A program made the translations under genes and the position numbers. A stretch of 21,555 nucleotides of DNA. Source: a virus. The stretch spans positions 1 through 21,555 of the IMG/VR virus record IMGVR_UViG_3300042516_003171. The stretch is one strand, 5' to 3'. The notes under the pieces are model-generated. The model did no database searches. It was not told the DNA's origin and saw only the letters and a program-made list of their open reading frames with translations. Positions 115 to 21,381 of the stretch are shown here, in pieces; position 1 is the stretch's first letter; each line of letters starts with the position of its first letter.

Positions 115-300
115 ATGGACAAGATGAAACTTGGCGGTGGCGGAAGTTACGAGAAGCTCGTTAGCAGTCTTGAGAGCAAGGGCGTCAAAGACCCGAAGGC
201 TCTTGCGGCATCCATTGGCATGAAAAAATACGGCAAGAAAGGCTTTTTGTCTCTTGCTGCCAAAGGTCGTCGCCGCGCTGAGCGCAAGTCTAACGCTTAG
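115..300 (+). CDS. Small basic phage protein of unknown function (61 aa)
   Basis: The protein has a Gly-rich start (KLGGGGSYEKLV), a central helix-prone part (GVKDPKALAASIGMKKYG) and a Lys/Arg-rich end (AAKGRRRAERK). Small basic proteins with a 'KGVK.PKALAA.IG.KKYGKK.F..MAAKGR' pattern are, from memory, common in phage genomes near structural genes. Their function is not established; nucleic-acid or virion binding would fit the charge. The start ATG at 115 follows a T-rich leader (AATTTT) with no Shine-Dalgarno. The last 11 nt overlap the end of the opposite-strand primase-helicase gene, so this marks the convergent boundary between rightward and leftward transcription. Confidence 0.7.
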   Translation: MDKMKLGGGGSYEKLVSSLESKGVKDPKALAASIGMKKYGKKGFLSLAAKGRRRAERKSNA

Positions 301-2128
301 GATATCGTCCTTTGACGTACGGCTTCTTGGCCGACTCCTTATCGACGACGAACTTCTGTGGGTCTGCGTAGTTCCATGAGATGTCGCCGCCCGTGCCACG
401 CTGGATCATAATCGATCCGGTGACTTTTCCGTCCTTATCCGTCATGCCGGAACGATCCGCTCGCTTCGCCATTCCGAGCATAAATTGTCGAGGTTGATTG
501 AAACCAACTTCCTTCATCACAATCACCTCTCTGGCCCAGTTCGTTAGGTCCGACGATCCGAATCCTGAGTAGGCCATCTCTGCCACGCTCTCCGGTTTGT
601 CGTCTCGACCTTTGGGCTTCGGGAAGTGATGAACGAGAATCAGGACTACGCCTGTCTCCATCATAATCGGCTGGAGCAAGTGCCGCGTAAAGTTCGCGCA
701 GACCTCGATATCCGATGGATTGCCGCCCATGTAGGAGAGCAGTGGATCGATATAAACCACATCGACCTTAGTCTTGCGAACGAGGCGGCGGAGCATCGTC
801 GCGAAGTCGGAACCCGTTCTCACCGTCTCGCGGAAGAATAACATGTTCGCGCTCCGAAGACCTCGCTCCCAGTTCTCCTTGCCAAAGGTCATCTGAGCAG
901 CGCCCTTGAGCGCATCATGCTGATCGGCGATGTCGTTTTCCGCCTGAATGTAAGCTACTTTTAGCGCACGGACGGGCTTGACGCCAAACCAAGCTTCGCC
1001 GGACGCCCACTTCAGACCTTGATACGCGGCCATCGAGCTTTTGCCGCATCCACTTTGCCCCACAAAGAGAAGGGATGATCCGCGCCGAACCCACCTATCG
1101 CCGATCAAATTGTCAGGATCGTTCTGCGGATCGTACTCGATGATGCTGTCTATCGAGAACTCCATCGGCATGTCCTGCGCGTCCATGTCGTCCTTGAACG
1201 CTTCCCAGTTCACTGCGCCCACGTTGACGGCCAAGAGCTTCTGCTCCTTGCCGTCGCGCATTACACCGGCCAGACGGCTGAACCGACTCGCGTTCTTGTT
1301 CTTCGGATCGATGCCGATGCTTTCGAGGTAGCGATAGACGACGTCGCGGCGCTCGTTCCACTCCTCTCTATTGGCCGCTTCAACGCGCACCCAGCCATGC
1401 AGACTCTTGCCGCCGGAATCTATGACGACCGATAGCGGAAGCTTCGACTCCTTCAACGCTGTCCATTGCTCATCCTTCGTCTTCTCGTCCATCTCAACTA
1501 GGACATGGCGGAAGTTCGCCACGCCAGAGTCCGATCCGCTCTCGTCGAAGCATGGATTGATACGGACGTATGCGCCTTTGCTGTCGCTGCCGTTCCACAT
1601 GGCGCTGATGGGCGGCGTGAAGTGGTTCTTAATCCATTCGTCGCGCTTAAGGAACGTACCCTTGGAGGCTGGCCTACCTCGACCCTCTTCGTCGAAAATG
1701 ATGTCGTTACAGATGCAGACAACTTCGTCCGACTCGAAGCAGGCTTTCAGGAAGTCGATTGTGGTAAATGGAGACGGAGGTTCCGGCATCGTTTGGATCG
1801 TGCGAACAACGAACTTGCCGGTGGGCGAGATGGGATTGCCGCCCTGCCCAATGCCCGATTGAGCGGATAAAAGCCAGCCACGCGGCTTGTCGTGCGTCAC
1901 GGTCATTGCCTGATTCACCTTGTGGGCCAATTCATAGGCATTCCACGGTGGAGAGCATTTCTCGCTGTACTCGGATAGCAGTGCTTCAGCCGATCCTCGC
2001 GACAGCTCGAATCCATGCACCAGAGCGGTAGCTACTGCGAAGGTTGCGTTATGACCGCCCTGTCCGCTGACGGCTCCGGGGGTGTTACGAAGCCATGCTC
2101 TGGCACGGTCGATATTTGATTGATTCAT
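290..2128 (-). CDS. Primase-polymerase / RepA-like helicase fusion (replication protein, 612 aa)
   Basis: This is probably the main replication initiator, combining primer synthesis and DNA unwinding. Residues about 5-80 look like the alpha-helical PriCT-type domain (SGQGGHNATF at 21-30, CSPPWNAYEL at 58-67). Residues about 150-320 resemble an archaeo-eukaryotic primase/prim-pol fold, with acidic motif VEMDE (211-215), the SLH motif (242-244) and SRFSRLAGVMR (281-291). Residues about 345-600 form a RecA/RepA-type ATPase (AAA_25), with Walker A GQSGCGKSS (357-365), Walker B VVYID (457-461) and VHHFPKP (499-505). The helical domain lies before the prim-pol core, whereas many AEP proteins carry it after. 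The start ATG overlaps the upstream stop as ATGA, so translation is probably coupled. It is the last gene of the leftward region. Helicase assignment is strong and primase assignment good. Confidence 0.88.
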   Translation of the reverse strand: MNQSNIDRARAWLRNTPGAVSGQGGHNATFAVATALVHGFELSRGSAEALLSEYSEKCSPPWNAYELAHKVNQAMTVTHDKPRGWLLSAQSGIGQGGNPISPTGKFVVRTIQTMPEPPSPFTTIDFLKACFESDEVVCICNDIIFDEEGRGRPASKGTFLKRDEWIKNHFTPPISAMWNGSDSKGAYVRINPCFDESGSDSGVANFRHVLVEMDEKTKDEQWTALKESKLPLSVVIDSGGKSLHGWVRVEAANREEWNERRDVVYRYLESIGIDPKNKNASRFSRLAGVMRDGKEQKLLAVNVGAVNWEAFKDDMDAQDMPMEFSIDSIIEYDPQNDPDNLIGDRWVRRGSSLLFVGQSGCGKSSMAAYQGLKWASGEAWFGVKPVRALKVAYIQAENDIADQHDALKGAAQMTFGKENWERGLRSANMLFFRETVRTGSDFATMLRRLVRKTKVDVVYIDPLLSYMGGNPSDIEVCANFTRHLLQPIMMETGVVLILVHHFPKPKGRDDKPESVAEMAYSGFGSSDLTNWAREVIVMKEVGFNQPRQFMLGMAKRADRSGMTDKDGKVTGSIMIQRGTGGDISWNYADPQKFVVDKESAKKPYVKGRYPKR

Positions 2129-6277: not shown

Positions 6278-6456
6278 GGCTTAACCTCCTGCTCGTTCCA
6301 CAGCAGCAGATCCGCTCGCATCGAGTCGTTCTCCTGCTCCAGTTGTTTCACCCGATCCTCCAGCTTGCGGACATCGAGAGCGATTGCGCGGAGTTGGCGG
6401 CGGTCGTTGTAATCGGCAAAAGCCGGCAGGTCCAAGATTCGTTGTTCTACGCTCAC
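6274..6456 (-). CDS. Small coiled-coil protein of the array (60 aa, GTG start)
   Basis: GTG 6454-6456 overlaps the stop of the upstream paralogue as GTGA. Residues about 18-55 form a predicted coiled coil (LDVRKLEDRVKQLEQENDSMRADLL), and the protein ends NEQEVKP, a variant of the KEAKP tail. It lacks the SDTPRxD and RELNAAN blocks of its neighbours, so it is a divergent or reduced member. Probably self-associates or pairs with neighbouring coiled-coil products. Confidence 0.62.
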   Translation of the reverse strand: MSVEQRILDLPAFADYNDRRQLRAIALDVRKLEDRVKQLEQENDSMRADLLLWNEQEVKP

Positions 6457-6761
6457 GGCTTGGCCTCTTTGGCTGTGGAAATTGGCTGTTTCAACCACAA
6501 CGCTTCCTCCAACTGTTTGATGCGCTCGCCCCTGTCCTCGTACAACGCAACGTCAGCGACTAACACTGCGTACTGGTTCTTCGCGTCCATTAGATCCTCC
6601 TCCAACCGCTTGATGCGGTCGTTTGCTGCGTTGAGTTCGCGTTCAATGGTGCGAGCGAAGTCCTTAACATCATCAACGGTTGTATCATCGTATTCCAAAC
6701 CAGCATCCGTCCTCGGTGTATCGCTGATCATTTTCGTGGCGTCAGGAATATGATCGCTCAT
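6453..6761 (-). CDS. Coiled-coil paralogue A (102 aa)
   Basis: The start ATG 6759-6761 overlaps the upstream stop as ATGA and has a GGGAGG Shine-Dalgarno. The first 17 residues, MSDHIPDATKMISDTPR, are identical to those of the paralogue at 8089-8424, encoded by an exact 51-bp repeat. Then come FARTIERELNAANDRIKRLEEDL and a second heptad segment GERIKQLEEAL, ending TAKEAKP. SDTPRxD..ERELNAAN proteins are, from memory, frequent small phage proteins of unknown role. Oligomerisation through the coiled coil is the only structural prediction I can support. Confidence 0.75.
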   Translation of the reverse strand: MSDHIPDATKMISDTPRTDAGLEYDDTTVDDVKDFARTIERELNAANDRIKRLEEDLMDAKNQYAVLVADVALYEDRGERIKQLEEALWLKQPISTAKEAKP

Positions 6762-6765
6762 TTCG
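6715..6765. repeat. 51-bp exact direct repeat, copy 1
   Basis: These 51 bp, which include the start of paralogue A, are identical to 8378-8428, which include the start of paralogue D. A recombination event between the copies would remove about 1.66 kb and leave one fused gene. Confidence 0.9.
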
Positions 6766-7108
6766 ATTCCTCCCATTTGCCAACCGTCCTCAGAAATGCC
6801 TCTGCGCGTTGACGAGCGGTGGCTTGTAGAATGCGCGTCATCCCGTCCAGTTCCGACATTTGCTCAGCCTCAAGCACTCGCATCAGATTCACCGCAAACT
6901 CAAGCCATGCAGTTGATCCACCAAGTGCAACCATCTCTGCTTGGCGCATCGCGTTGAGGTCTTTGCAGAAACTTGGGACACCAAGTTCAGCCTCGTTTGG
7001 GTGTGATGTTCCACGAGGAAACCATACGCCACACCGAATATCTCCGCAGGCGCACTTCGCCCATCCAAGCTGCAAAGCGATTGCTTCGTTGATTTCTTCG
7101 TCTGTCAC
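6758..7108 (-). CDS. Phage ABA-sandwich-like protein (116 aa, GTG start)
   Basis: GTG 7106-7108 forms a GTGA overlap with the preceding coiled-coil gene. The pattern MTDEEINEAIALQLGWAKC, PSFCKDLNAMRQAEMVALG, then a helical C-terminal half resembles the small 'phage ABA sandwich' family (start ...EIN..IA...GW, then P.[YF]..DLNAM..AE). Its function is unknown. Cys at CACGDIRCGVWF could bind metal. It interrupts the coiled-coil array, so the array is an alternation of families rather than a pure tandem repeat. Confidence 0.68.
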   Translation of the reverse strand: MTDEEINEAIALQLGWAKCACGDIRCGVWFPRGTSHPNEAELGVPSFCKDLNAMRQAEMVALGGSTAWLEFAVNLMRVLEAEQMSELDGMTRILQATARQRAEAFLRTVGKWEESK

Positions 7109-7506
7109 GGCTTGGCCTCCTTGGCTTTGTGCCAGTTGACGGTTTCCAACAGATCGTAGGTCTGGGTATTGGCTAGCTCATCCCCCGCCTCCTCCAACCG
7201 CTTGATGCGCTCGTTTGCTTCGGAAAGCTTTTTACGAAGGTTAGCATCCTGTACTCCAGCTTCTTGCCGAATTTCACTAAGAAGAATTATCTTCTCCGCC
7301 TGTCGGTCAATGAGTTCATCAAGCCGCTTGTTCCATTCATCCCGTTGCTTGATGCGTTCCTTTAACCGCAGGTTTTCTTCATCCAACAATTGCTGCTGCC
7401 GGATGATTGCGTTTGCTGCGTTGAGTTCGCGTTCCAGCCTTCGGCATAGCATACCGAGATCGCCTACGTTGTGAGCGGTTGAGTCGGATATTGGTGTTTC
7501 GCTCAT
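7105..7506 (-). CDS. Coiled-coil paralogue B (133 aa)
   Basis: ATG 7504-7506 overlaps the upstream stop as ATGA, with GAGGAGG about 8 nt before it. Layout: SETPISDS N-terminal block, CRRLERELNAANAIIRQQQ, a long heptad-rich middle (LDEENLRLKERIKQRDEW through LSEIRQEAG), SEANERIKRLEEAGDEL, and tail HKAKEAKP. It is the longest array member, with a nearly continuous coiled coil of about 90 residues. The ERIKRLEEAGDE block recurs in the two genes before it. Confidence 0.75.
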   Translation of the reverse strand: MSETPISDSTAHNVGDLGMLCRRLERELNAANAIIRQQQLLDEENLRLKERIKQRDEWNKRLDELIDRQAEKIILLSEIRQEAGVQDANLRKKLSEANERIKRLEEAGDELANTQTYDLLETVNWHKAKEAKP

Positions 7507-7742
7507 CGGGGAACCTCCTCCACCATCTCGTAGGTGAGTCTGAAGATGTCGGGCTTGCACGGATAGTGCTCACCCTTCACTCCGGTGATGATGTAGTCGC
7601 CGGGTGAAACAATATGACCACCCTCAAGCGTTTGAATCCATCCGTTCAATGAGTCTGGTGAAATGGTTTCTACCATAGGATGATCGCCATGCCTCATCCA
7701 TTGAGTCGCTTCAATGACGACTGGTTTCTTGCGGTACTTCAC
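7503..7742 (-). CDS. Conserved phage protein with GVKGEHYPCKPDIF motif (79 aa, GTG start)
   Basis: GTG 7740-7742 makes a GTGA overlap. The sequence MKYRKKPVVIEATQW at the start and GDYIITGVKGEHYPCKPDIF near the end is a widespread small phage protein signature that I recognise from memory (YRKKPV.IEA.QW ... GD.II.GVKGE.YPCKPDIF). The function is unestablished. The fold should be a small beta-rich domain. It sits between coiled-coil paralogues and ends with a Shine-Dalgarno-containing stretch for the next gene. Confidence 0.75.
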   Translation of the reverse strand: MKYRKKPVVIEATQWMRHGDHPMVETISPDSLNGWIQTLEGGHIVSPGDYIITGVKGEHYPCKPDIFRLTYEMVEEVPR

Positions 7743-8092
7743 GGCTTGACCTCCTTGGCTTTGCGCCATTTCTCAATCTCCATGTGCCACCCCATAAAGG
7801 CGGCAGCAGCGCATAGTACATCCCCCGCCTCCTCCAACCGCCTGATGCGTCTTTCAAGTTCTCCATTTGAATTTAGCAATCGAGCTTCATCTGAACCAAG
7901 TTCGTTGAGTTCCTCCTCCAGCCGCTTGATGCGGTCAGCCAGATTGAGAGCGTGAATATTTAATTTCCTGAACATCTCATTGGCCGCGTTGAGTTCGCGT
8001 TCGAGTTTCAGGCCTTCAGTTAATAGATATGATTCAGTGCAATCTTCCTGTGCCTTACGAAGCGCAAGGTCCATCCTCGGGGTATGACTCAC
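7739..8092 (-). CDS. Coiled-coil paralogue C (117 aa, GTG start)
   Basis: GTG 8090-8092 makes a GTGA overlap with paralogue D. N-terminal SHTPRMDLALRKAQ corresponds to SDTPRxD in the relatives. Then come LKLERELNAANEMFRKLN, LADRIKRLEEELNELG and GELERRIRRLEEAGDVL, ending WRKAKEVKP. Two RIKRLEE-type heptad blocks suggest internal duplication. The last codons carry AAGGAGG, which serves as the ribosome site for the gene at 7503-7742. Confidence 0.75.
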   Translation of the reverse strand: MSHTPRMDLALRKAQEDCTESYLLTEGLKLERELNAANEMFRKLNIHALNLADRIKRLEEELNELGSDEARLLNSNGELERRIRRLEEAGDVLCAAAAFMGWHMEIEKWRKAKEVKP

Positions 8093-8424
8093 GGCTTGGC
8101 CTCCTTGGCTTTGCGCCATCTATTGCTGGAGTAATAATCACTGCAATATTTTTCCATCTCATCCCCCGCCTCCTCCAACCGCTTGATCCGCTCATTGGCA
8201 CTCTCAAGATCCTGATAGGCGTTCACCTTGTCGATGTTTTGGACGGTACAAAGCGCAGATTCCAAGTTCTTGATGCGCTCATTGGCCGCATAGAGTTCGC
8301 GTTCGATGTCACAGCCCACCTGCCATATTTTGGCAAAGCCAGCATCAGGATGGTCTAAGAGTGCAGATTGCATTCTGGGTGTATCGCTGATCATTTTCGT
8401 GGCGTCAGGAATATGATCGCTCAT
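8089..8424 (-). CDS. Coiled-coil paralogue D (111 aa)
   Basis: The ATG 8422-8424 overlaps the stop of a 52-residue gene as ATGA, with AAGGAGG about 4 nt before the start. It shares MSDHIPDATKMISDTPR exactly with paralogue A. It continues CDIERELYAANERIKNLESAL, then SANERIKRLEEAGDEM and WRKAKEAKP. Sharing its start with A and its end with B and C indicates that array members have exchanged segments. Confidence 0.75.
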   Translation of the reverse strand: MSDHIPDATKMISDTPRMQSALLDHPDAGFAKIWQVGCDIERELYAANERIKNLESALCTVQNIDKVNAYQDLESANERIKRLEEAGDEMEKYCSDYYSSNRWRKAKEAKP

Positions 8425-8428
8425 TTCG
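8378..8428. repeat. 51-bp exact direct repeat, copy 2
   Basis: Second copy of the repeat described at 6715-6765. Identity ends just past the start codon, 5' of which the two genes have different Shine-Dalgarno contexts (GGGAGG versus AAGGAGG). Confidence 0.9.
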
Positions 8429-8579
8429 CCTCCTTCTTATTCTTCCTGTTCCTCGTCCAGTAACTGAACGCATAGTTCTTCACCTTCTTAGCCGCCTTAT
8501 GGATTTCTCCAGCCTCTTTCTTGCTGATGCTGTACACGCCGGTGCCATCATTTATGATGTTCCTGATCTTGTCGCTCAC
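8421..8579 (-). CDS. Small basic protein (52 aa, GTG start)
   Basis: A short gene filling the gap between ThyX and the coiled-coil array. GTG 8577-8579 overlaps the ThyX stop as GTGA, and its TGA 8421-8423 overlaps the next ATG as ATGA. The product begins MSDKIRNIINDGTGVYS and is Lys-rich (SKKEAGEIHKAAKKVKNYAF), ending NRKNKKEAK. The tail again encodes the AAGGAGG for the next gene and mimics the KEAKP ends. Perfect coupling at both ends makes it very likely real. Nucleic-acid binding is possible from the charge only. Confidence 0.75.
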   Translation of the reverse strand: MSDKIRNIINDGTGVYSISKKEAGEIHKAAKKVKNYAFSYWTRNRKNKKEAK

Positions 8580-12217: not shown

Positions 12218-12691
12218 TTAGTTGCCGGTTGAACTGTCGGTTTCGGAAAGGCTGCGGTACTTGGCGAGAAGGTCGTCGATGGATGAGTCGGCCACAGGTT
12301 CCAGCCCCGGTTCGGTAGGCTTCTCGTCATCGGCCTTCTGCTTTCTTTTACGCTGCTTTCCCTTGCGAAGCGCGTTGATAGCTTTCCAAATCTGGGCGAT
12401 TTCGCGACGGAGGTCCGAGAACTTGCGCGACTCAAGATCCTTCTGAGCCTCCTCATCGGACGGCTTCCAATCGCATCCATGCCAAACCCGATGGGTTCGA
12501 TCAAAAACCAAGACCTGACTCTTGACGTTCCGCATCGAGCCAAACGCTCGATTAGCCTCGACCAACCCACCGCCAATCGTCTCGACAATGTAGGCCAACA
12601 ACTCGGACTTCTCCGAATTCAGATTGTGCCTCTTCGGCGGCATTTCTCGGAACGTGGACCGAAGCGTGGAGCCATTTGATAAGTAACTCAT
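12218..12691 (-). CDS. Hypothetical protein, basic central region (157 aa)
   Basis: First gene after the 400-bp gap, so possibly first in its transcript. Visible parts: EKSELLAYIVETIGGGLVEA (helix), RNVKSQVLVFDRTHRVWHG, a Lys/Arg-rich segment (ALRKGKQRKRKQKADDEK), and an acidic helical end (SSIDDLLAKYRSLSETD). The basic patch suggests nucleic-acid contact. A poor sigma70-like arrangement lies immediately upstream on this strand (TTGACT at 12724-12729, TATCTG at 12701-12706, 17-nt spacer), which would leave almost no leader. No family recognised. Confidence 0.62.
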   Translation of the reverse strand: MSYLSNGSTLRSTFREMPPKRHNLNSEKSELLAYIVETIGGGLVEANRAFGSMRNVKSQVLVFDRTHRVWHGCDWKPSDEEAQKDLESRKFSDLRREIAQIWKAINALRKGKQRKRKQKADDEKPTEPGLEPVADSSIDDLLAKYRSLSETDSSTGN

Positions 12692-13091
12692 GGTGGAAAA
12701 CAGATAAGTCTCTTTTGTCGTCTAGTCAACGTAAATCTACCAATGGCTCCTTCTAAGTTACCCTTGGTACACCTAGCTCATCTAAAGATAAGCCTCCCCT
12801 TTCTAAAAAAGGGGAGAGGCTTATTCCGAAAACGGAATGCTTGCGCTCCGCCTTTGGGGGCGGTGCCGCTTCCGTTTCGGAAAAGGATATGTGAAGTGTT
12901 CTTGTCGCTTTGTCGGTCATGTAGGGCAGCGGGAATGCCCCGCAATCGATCAGAAATGCCCCGTAGAGCGTTCGTAAGCTGTTTGGCGGCTCTACGGACG
13001 GTTTCGCGTGTGTCCGCGCTAGAATCGAATCGATGAAATGACATGGTGCGAATGAGGTTTATTGGCCTACTTTTTATCCGGCGAAAAGTTA
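12692..13091 (-). other. 400-bp region without a firm gene, with a cluster of hairpins; weak 88-aa ORF (12778-13044)
   Basis: This breaks the otherwise tight leftward operon. A frame at 12778-13044 on the minus strand begins MSFHRFDSSADTRETVRRAA, plausible for about 50 residues, but ends in a Phe/Arg/Lys/Pro-rich tail produced by the palindromes, so coding is doubtful. Stem-loops: 12788-12824, 12823-12838 (ATTCCG/CGGAAT, loop AAAA), about 12849-12864 (CCGCC/GGCGG) and 12870-12882 (TTCCG/CGGAA, loop TTT). A 9-bp word AATGCCCCG occurs twice near 12931-12967. Candidate roles are a replication origin, a promoter/operator region or an RNA-level control element. Confidence 0.5.
12788..12824. repeat. 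Long imperfect hairpin
   Basis: ATAAGCCTC (12788-12796) pairs with GAGGCTTAT (12816-12824), and CCCTTT (12797-12802) pairs with AAAGGG (12808-12813). This gives a 15-bp stem with a 2-nt bulge (GA) and a 5-nt loop. Neither strand has a clear T-tract after the stem, so it is not a standard intrinsic terminator. Confidence 0.75.
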
Positions 13092-13337
13092 TCAGGATTG
13101 GATTCGCTCGACGACGGGATACACGTCGTAGTCCTCCGACAGTTCGACCGGGACGACGCGAATCCGCCCTTGCGTGTACTCGCCGGGATTCAGTTCACGC
13201 GCCGCCCGTTCCGCATCCTTGCGCGAGGAGAATTCGACCGTCTGGTAACTGACGACCTTCTCCTTCATGTCGCTCCAGCCAATCGCGCCGCTTAGTTGGA
13301 CCTTGTAGGTTGGCTTCGCGAAGAGGTTGCGGCTCAT
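13092..13337 (-). CDS. Small hypothetical protein (81 aa)
   Basis: Coupled to the gene before it by ATGA (ATG 13335-13337). Alpha/beta-like sequence: KPTYKVQLSGAIGWSDMKEK, SYQTVEFSSRKDAERAARELN, RIRVVPVELSEDYDVYPV. The strand-helix-strand order with FSSRKDAERAARELNPGEY resembles small domains in which a helix follows 'S..dAe.aA..l'. The protein was not recognised. It is the last gene before the hairpin region. Confidence 0.68.
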   Translation of the reverse strand: MSRNLFAKPTYKVQLSGAIGWSDMKEKVVSYQTVEFSSRKDAERAARELNPGEYTQGRIRVVPVELSEDYDVYPVVERIQS

Positions 13338-17141: not shown

Positions 17142-17327
17142 TCAACCGACCAACGCTCTTAATTGCCACGATTGAAGGTCAATATTTCCCGCACTTCGCC
17201 AAACCGATCTTGCGCGGGCTTCACATTCCCATTTTTGCATTGGGCCGCATGAGTCGGCTTCGGCGAATATGGCGCGAATCTCATCGGCAATCTCAGCGCT
17301 GACAGCGGTAAGGAGGTTTTCTTTCAT
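17142..17327 (-). CDS. Small hypothetical protein (61 aa)
   Basis: The first leftward gene, facing the divergent region. Helical: LLTAVSAEIADEIRAIFAEAD, then CGPMQKWECEARARSVWRSAG and DLQSWQLRALVG. A purine-rich leader precedes ATG 17325-17327 only weakly. Not recognised. A leftward promoter is expected between 17328 and 17410. Confidence 0.6.
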   Translation of the reverse strand: MKENLLTAVSAEIADEIRAIFAEADSCGPMQKWECEARARSVWRSAGNIDLQSWQLRALVG

Positions 17328-17488
17328 GAGTAAAGACTAGGCGACGGAGCGGAAGGAGTCAAAGAAAAAAACAAATTAATTTTTAAAGCGGGGCGAAAGG
17401 GGCGGAATCATTGGGGAAAATGCGCTTGTCGTCAGCTTGTCGTCAGCGCGCTTGTCGGGCCGTAAGGCCGTCTGTACGCTTCCGACAG
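17328..17488. promoter_or_regulatory. Divergent intergenic region with tandem 11-bp repeats
   Basis: Leftward early and rightward late transcription diverge here. An A/T-rich core (AAAAAAACAAATTAATTTTT, near 17366-17385) could hold promoters for both directions, although I cannot place a convincing -35/-10 pair. CTTGTCGTCAG occurs twice in tandem at 17425-17446, and CTTGTCGGGC follows at 17451-17460. Such repeats directly before a small-terminase-like gene recall binding sites for packaging initiation, but that is inference. Confidence 0.5.
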
Positions 17489-21046: not shown

Positions 21047-21099
21047 GCCCGTTATCGCTTAGACATTGACATCCCAATAGGTCGCGTAATGCTCCCCGT

Positions 21100-21381
21100 A
21101 TGCCGTCATTTACGATTCCAAAAGGCGTAGAAATCCCCGAGAACCTTGCGGAGGGCGAAGCGTTCCAGACTATGGCGACTATCGTTCTTGGTAAGAATGG
21201 CAAGGCGGAGGTCATCGAGATTGATGGTGTGGCCATTCCCGGATACGAGAAGAAATCCAAGGGCAAGAAGCTGGCCGAGCGCGGTGAGGAGGAGGAGATG
21301 GAGGAGGAGGGTGCGACTCCCGGCGGCGGTGGATTTATCGCCGAGGTGATGCAGCGCGGCGCTGGTCCGATGGCACGATAA
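21100..21381 (+). CDS. Small acidic hypothetical protein (93 aa)
   Basis: Starts MPSFTIPKGVEIPENLAEG, then QTMATIVLGKNGKAEVIEIDG and a highly charged EERGEEEE-type acidic stretch (coding GAGGAGGAGG repeats), ending GGGGFIAEVMQRGAG. The order neutral domain, acidic hinge, short helix is typical of small virion accessory or scaffold-associated proteins, but no family is recognised. It lies right after the terminator of the HNH gene, so it needs its own promoter or read-through. Confidence 0.65.
   Translation: MPSFTIPKGVEIPENLAEGEAFQTMATIVLGKNGKAEVIEIDGVAIPGYEKKSKGKKLAERGEEEEMEEEGATPGGGGFIAEVMQRGAGPMAR

Follow-up and report, generated by a model that had tools for sequence, protein, structure and literature searches.

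A conserved three-hairpin locus of uncultured phages as a candidate operon boundary

We describe here a structured locus, previously undescribed and strongly conserved, in a group of uncultured phages: three hairpins (H1, H2 and H3) in a conserved architecture with a constant link to a downstream gene, g157. The fragment of uncultured phage DNA analysed, a 21.5-kb IMG/VR record, is referred to throughout as the window. The element is non-coding. Because it keeps its shape while its letters change, and always lies just before the g157 promoter, we consider it most likely, at a rough probability of one half, to be an operon boundary, in which the predicted end of an early transcript would be followed by the next promoter. 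The class that the initial annotation had assigned to it, an origin or control element, was the right one. All of the relatives are metagenomic contigs, and function is read here from anatomy.

The gap and its three hairpins

All genes of the window between about 17.3 and 0.3 kb are oriented leftward. A 400-bp gap (12692-13091) separates u81, an 81-aa gene (13092-13337), from g157, a 157-aa gene; its order on the minus (gene) strand is a variable block, H1, H2, H3, an inverted repeat, a TTGACT box (12729) and the ATG of g157 (12691; Table 1). Both the gap and its inverted repeats are borne out where the initial annotation had placed them, and the hairpin cluster is genuine: no hairpin in the window is stronger than the one within 12777-12882. 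Four stem-loops had been claimed, and the inverted repeats behind them are present, but the best fold on the minus strand comprises three hairpins, since the two short TTCCG/CGGAA stem-loops merge into the base of H1. The bulges of H1 lie mainly on its 3' side, in other families too.

The gene strand of the 400-nt gap folds better than 100 of 100 dinucleotide shuffles (z -4.5), and a 112-nt core reaches z -6.1 against shuffles. With DNA parameters, none of the 2149 segments ranked in the window forms a more stable hairpin than a 70-bp segment of this core (rank 1); the element also ranks first for hairpin stability in two relatives (G001 and G004), and third to seventh in three others. Elsewhere in the window (6442-8434) we noted a series of small coiled-coil genes, paralogous and in tandem, that have ERELNAANERIKRLEE-type repeats in common.

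Table 1. Coordinates of the element, its neighbours and the candidate regulatory sites in the window
Feature	Position	Strand	Remarks
Putative promoter P1, -35 box (TTGACT-17-TAGTCT-6-ATG)	17357..17362	-	upstream leftward unit, first gene 17142-17327
ORF88, open frame through element	12778..13044	-	judged non-coding
H1, long irregular hairpin	12824..12882	-	nearly pure Watson-Crick, strand-symmetric
H2, strong hairpin (GCCTCTCCCC..GGGGAGGC)	12788..12824	-	followed by T-rich stretch TTATCTTT on gene strand
H3, small hairpin (CTTATC-TTTA-GATGAG)	12777..12792	-	conserved U.G pair; overlaps end of H2
Operator-like inverted repeat (ACCAA..TTGGT) with TAAC word	12738..12769	-	upstream of -35 box
Putative promoter P2 (TTGACT-17 nt-TATCTG)	12701..12729	-	TTGAC starts 38 nt before g157 ATG
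g157, always downstream of element	12218..12691	-	winged-helix-like + coiled coil (AF2); no database family
Replication protein	290..2128	-	PriCT-1-like N-terminus (by eye), AEP PrimPol domain, RepA-type RecA helicase

Conservation of shape and the link to g157

The element is carried by more than 100 IMG/VR contigs from uncultured environmental phages, mostly of ~45 kb, as a single copy per genome and always upstream of g157; a 20-base word of H2 is present in 49 contigs. Among 33 distinct sequences that we designate type A (g157 72-100% identical), H2 is invariant and the spacing from its end to the ATG is constant: H2 and H3 together are 100% identical, H1 94.7% and the upstream block 71%. 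This extreme conservation extends to the loops, and the variation of H1 within type A falls nearly all in loops and bulges.

The same order of H1, H2, H3, TAAC-like words, TTGAC and ATG recurs in relatives whose g157 is as little as 37% identical and in which the letters are largely different. About nine sequence families have this architecture in common, which is found in all element-bearing relatives examined; a profile search added further families. Folding of 17 versions from nine families gave z values of -5.0 to -10.3 for the gene strand and, for the opposite strand, of -3.8 to -9.5; the outer stems of H1 are self-complementary in each of several wordings (TTCCGAAA/TTTCGGAA, TTTCATCCCGAA/TTCGGGATGAAA, AATTCCGC/GCGGAATT, AAAAACTGC/GCAGTTTTT and CGAAAAATGC/GCATTTTTCG). 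Relatives without conserved stems, which in the initial annotation were to count against a structured element, were looked for, and stems are kept in all families. MAFFT gave no end-to-end alignment of the families, and the formal pair count, taken on three alignable families, is positive, if modest: 85% paired versus 80% shuffled, with five pairs changed on both sides, a number matched by 30 of 500 shuffles.

An AF2 model of g157, of low confidence (pLDDT 68, pTM 0.37), consists of a helix-helix-helix-beta-hairpin unit (residues 10-73, winged-helix-like), a coiled coil (80-122) and an exchangeable C-terminal tail. A fold search of the PDB returned non-significant matches only, winged-helix proteins among them; no relative of g157 was found in INPHARED or in cellular genomes, and the element had no match in the phage database. 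Several forms of the tail were seen in the window and in its relatives L019, L091, L131, L022 and L081 (SIDDLLAKYRSLS, SLSEEFAKLFPEL, DDLAADLKEIFGNL, IESMVAAAWK and a long DAFIPQINLEEANR form), and they are common to N-terminal types only ~45% identical, as if a partner-binding tail had been swapped independently.

In one contig of 47.7 kb (G014; L170/L192/L193), a direct repeat is common to both ends: one end bears a type-A element and the opposite end a type-B element together with g157, each beside the same repeated flank, and the breakpoint between the cassette alleles lies at the conserved word CGATTCGATTCTAGCG. Here the element-g157 cassette is present as two alleles on one flank, in a single population. 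Contig ends cluster within the 300 nt that follow u81; genome termini were considered as the cause, and assembly forks between the allelic cassettes explain the cluster better, because both alleles occupy the same flank in G014. In relatives with a longer interval between u81 and the element (L016, L106, L137 and L046), the insert is either a cytosine-5 DNA methyltransferase-like gene, whole or as remnants (GGYPCQPFS and ENVEG motifs), or an 84-aa gene (MSIRDELAEIDPDLLLMDGFDD).

Transcript end, next promoter and alternative readings

Wobble pairs distinguish the hairpins from each other. Across 15 versions (related to one another, and divided into H1 and H2/H3 after seeing the data, so that independent confirmation is needed), H2/H3 with H1 folded apart contain 28 G-U pairs in the sense of the gene strand and 2 in the opposite sense, distributed over families at zero to three per version, whereas H1 contains 8 and 17, respectively, alongside 358 Watson-Crick pairs. 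With nearly all of their G-U pairs in the gene-strand sense, H2 and H3 look like RNA of a leftward transcript, and a terminator hairpin is expected to work in the RNA transcribed from the upstream genes; H1, strand-symmetric and almost wobble-free, looks like a DNA-level dyad. Counts over the whole region (185-nt folds) carry no strand signal (277 versus 253). The regulatory RNA suggested in the initial annotation is thus supported for H2/H3 by their strand-specific wobbles and not for H1, which is without such a bias. Wobble strand bias may be a means of telling hairpin kinds apart within one cluster.

The TTGAC box of P2 is invariant and starts 38-40 nt ahead of the g157 ATG in every family; this ATG is near-leaderless and has no Shine-Dalgarno sequence. 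In three genomes, boxes of the P1 type precede the element by 4.6-4.9 kb. With a putative P1-type promoter upstream and P2 downstream, the element sits between two leftward units. A third promoter-like site of P1/P2 build, in the rightward region (TTGACA, with an ATG 34 nt on; 21066-21381), precedes a 93-98 aa gene (MPSFTIPKGVEIPEN) and has matching sites in 5 of 5 genomes scanned (G001, G004, G006, G009 and G010). A promoter scan of the window found none, and the window's own P2 -10 box is weak; genome-wide, TTGAC boxes at such a distance from an ATG are not unusual (19, versus a permuted-word mean of 8, with three permutations higher).

Seven to nine of the 12 bases after H2 are T in six families (A, B3-B7). 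The corresponding count is 2-5 in the CTCCC families B1, B2 and B8, which are without a T-rich tail, so that termination there would need another mechanism. A terminator scan matches H2, a hit that does not exceed chance (0.7 expected). A Rho/rut site upstream of H1 was considered, since a C>G tract is present there in all versions, and was set aside: the whole upstream operon is likewise biased, and the signal is therefore not specific, except in B8 types. Because the T-rich tail is found in six of nine families and not in three, termination at H2/H3 is something that we infer rather than observe, as are the activity of P2 and the binding of g157 at the locus.

We hypothesize that transcripts from P1 (17.36 kb) would proceed leftward across the upstream unit until they meet H2 and H3. 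As RNA, these two hairpins would make up the 3' end of the transcript, resembling an intrinsic terminator in most families and being twin hairpins in others. Some 50 bp on, the operator-like inverted repeat and P2 would start the next unit, with g157 first and the PrimPol-helicase last, and g157 probably binds, regulates or uses this control locus. H1 would be a DNA-level dyad with a separate role in the locus, possibly at the start of replication. Against the operon-boundary reading counts the elaborate conserved shape of H1, which is more than a terminator needs.

Bearing in mind that these are adjacent stable hairpins in a leftward transcript, that the wobbles of H2/H3 favour the gene strand and that type-A conservation reaches into the loops, one might picture H1-H3 in the nascent P1 transcript as a processive antiterminator (HK022 put, EAR or canT-like) for the 12-kb replication operon, or as a free small RNA. 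We regard this as improbable: P1 is 4.6 kb away and the element has a promoter of its own immediately downstream, where antitermination would be least needed, H1 is without an RNA-type wobble bias, and no Rfam covariance model matched the element even at E 1. It is far less probable that the palindromes are incidental to a coding sequence, either ORF88 or an overlapping 55-aa frame. The frame of ORF88 is still open in many type-A relatives, but upstream of H1 its dN/dS is ~1.1 (dN 0.099, dS 0.087), against 0.13 for g157 in the genomes compared (dN 0.034, dS 0.264); moreover, one nucleotide motif at the apex of H1 falls in one reading frame in type A and in another in type B3, and the ORF88 start is lost, or the frame shifted by one base, in L106 and L143. 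Protein-level conservation of the 12778-13044 frame, which the initial annotation had named as evidence against its proposal, was checked, and no protein constraint was found. The same annotation's REP-like repeat (or any mobile palindromic repeat) would account for palindromes within an intergenic gap, but is refuted and has a negligible probability: the element is a single copy at a single place in each phage genome, with no dispersed copies, and the H1 apical word was found in 67 viral contigs, a single time in each, and nowhere among 84,980 cellular genomes.

A tentative reading, to which we give a lower probability than to the operon boundary and which is compatible with H2/H3 as transcript-end hairpins, is that H1 is an origin: a DNA hairpin or cruciform at which, by analogy with RSF1010 or plasmid pRN1, the PrimPol-RepA-type helicase would start, with g157 as a separate winged-helix initiator on the adjacent TAAC repeats. 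The replication protein, found in 15 of 16 element-bearing records, apparently resembles the InversePrim family: its PrimPol and RepA-type helicase parts match the published layout, PriCT-1/AEP/RepA (PMC5862659), the AEP match being weak (phmmer to a PrimPol AEP structure, E 0.005) with the active-site motif present, and no C-terminal winged helix of its own was seen in it. The strand symmetry of H1, its near freedom from wobbles, its single copy and its constant place adjoining g157 would all suit an origin. GC skew, a check proposed in the initial annotation, changes around the element in the direction that an origin predicts, but the change is gradual and gene content confounds it; there are no iterons of classic form, and g157, whose model is weak, resembles no known initiator. 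The earlier origin proposal survives as a candidate, likeliest for H1, but without its DnaA-type part: two TTATC words had been taken for degenerate DnaA boxes, and no match to TTATNCACA, with one mismatch allowed, lies in the gap, sites in the window being fewer than chance. More speculative still is the fuller version, in which H1 would be the shape-only-conserved origin of a widespread uncultured phage group, g157 would load the PriCT-1/PrimPol/RepA-type ('InversePrim'-like) protein, and the DNA-binding half of the initiator would form with the origin a matched exchangeable cassette, its C-terminal tail being swapped independently.

Comparison with known systems

The element is like the intrinsic terminators between phage operons in its H2 stem with a T-rich tail (six families), in its place at an operon end and in its RNA-sense wobbles; unlike them, it has invariant type-A loops, the extra, elaborate H1 and three tail-less families. 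HK022 put, of ~70 nt, has two stem-loops downstream of early promoters, near the start of the early transcript, and acts without a phage protein (PMC9378689). Adjacent stem-loops in an early phage transcript are common to put and to our element; on the other hand, there are three hairpins here, the promoter is distant, another promoter follows directly and no sequence family matches.

For stem-loop origins of the PrimPol type we found precedent in one archaeal plasmid family and in a proposal for one phage. In plasmid pRN1, a stem-loop conserved in structure and not in sequence was shown to be necessary for replication, and a stem-loop origin was proposed for Bordetella phage BIP-1 (PMC4234260); such shape-conserved stem-loops in PrimPol replicons make H1 a reasonable origin candidate. 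A large imperfect stem-loop conserved in shape and an encoded AEP PrimPol-helicase (here a weak sequence match) are shared, and hairpin size is roughly similar (~60 nt for H1, ~100 nt in pRN1; PMC4234260). In contrast to the stem-loops of pRN1 and BIP-1, which are 3' of the replication gene, the element lies ~10.7 kb upstream of the PrimPol gene, before a separate winged-helix-like gene and its promoter, and the helicase is RepA-type and not SF3. The element would mark an operon boundary and provide a single small candidate origin for PrimPol-type phages. The RSF1010 replicon, with RepA, RepB', RepC and the ssiA/ssiB hairpins (PMC4234260), likewise brings together a RepA-type helicase, a primase, a DNA-binding protein (in our case a candidate) and hairpins on one replicon; it differs in that PrimPol and helicase are fused here and classic iterons are absent, and any kinship between g157 and RepC would be conjectural.
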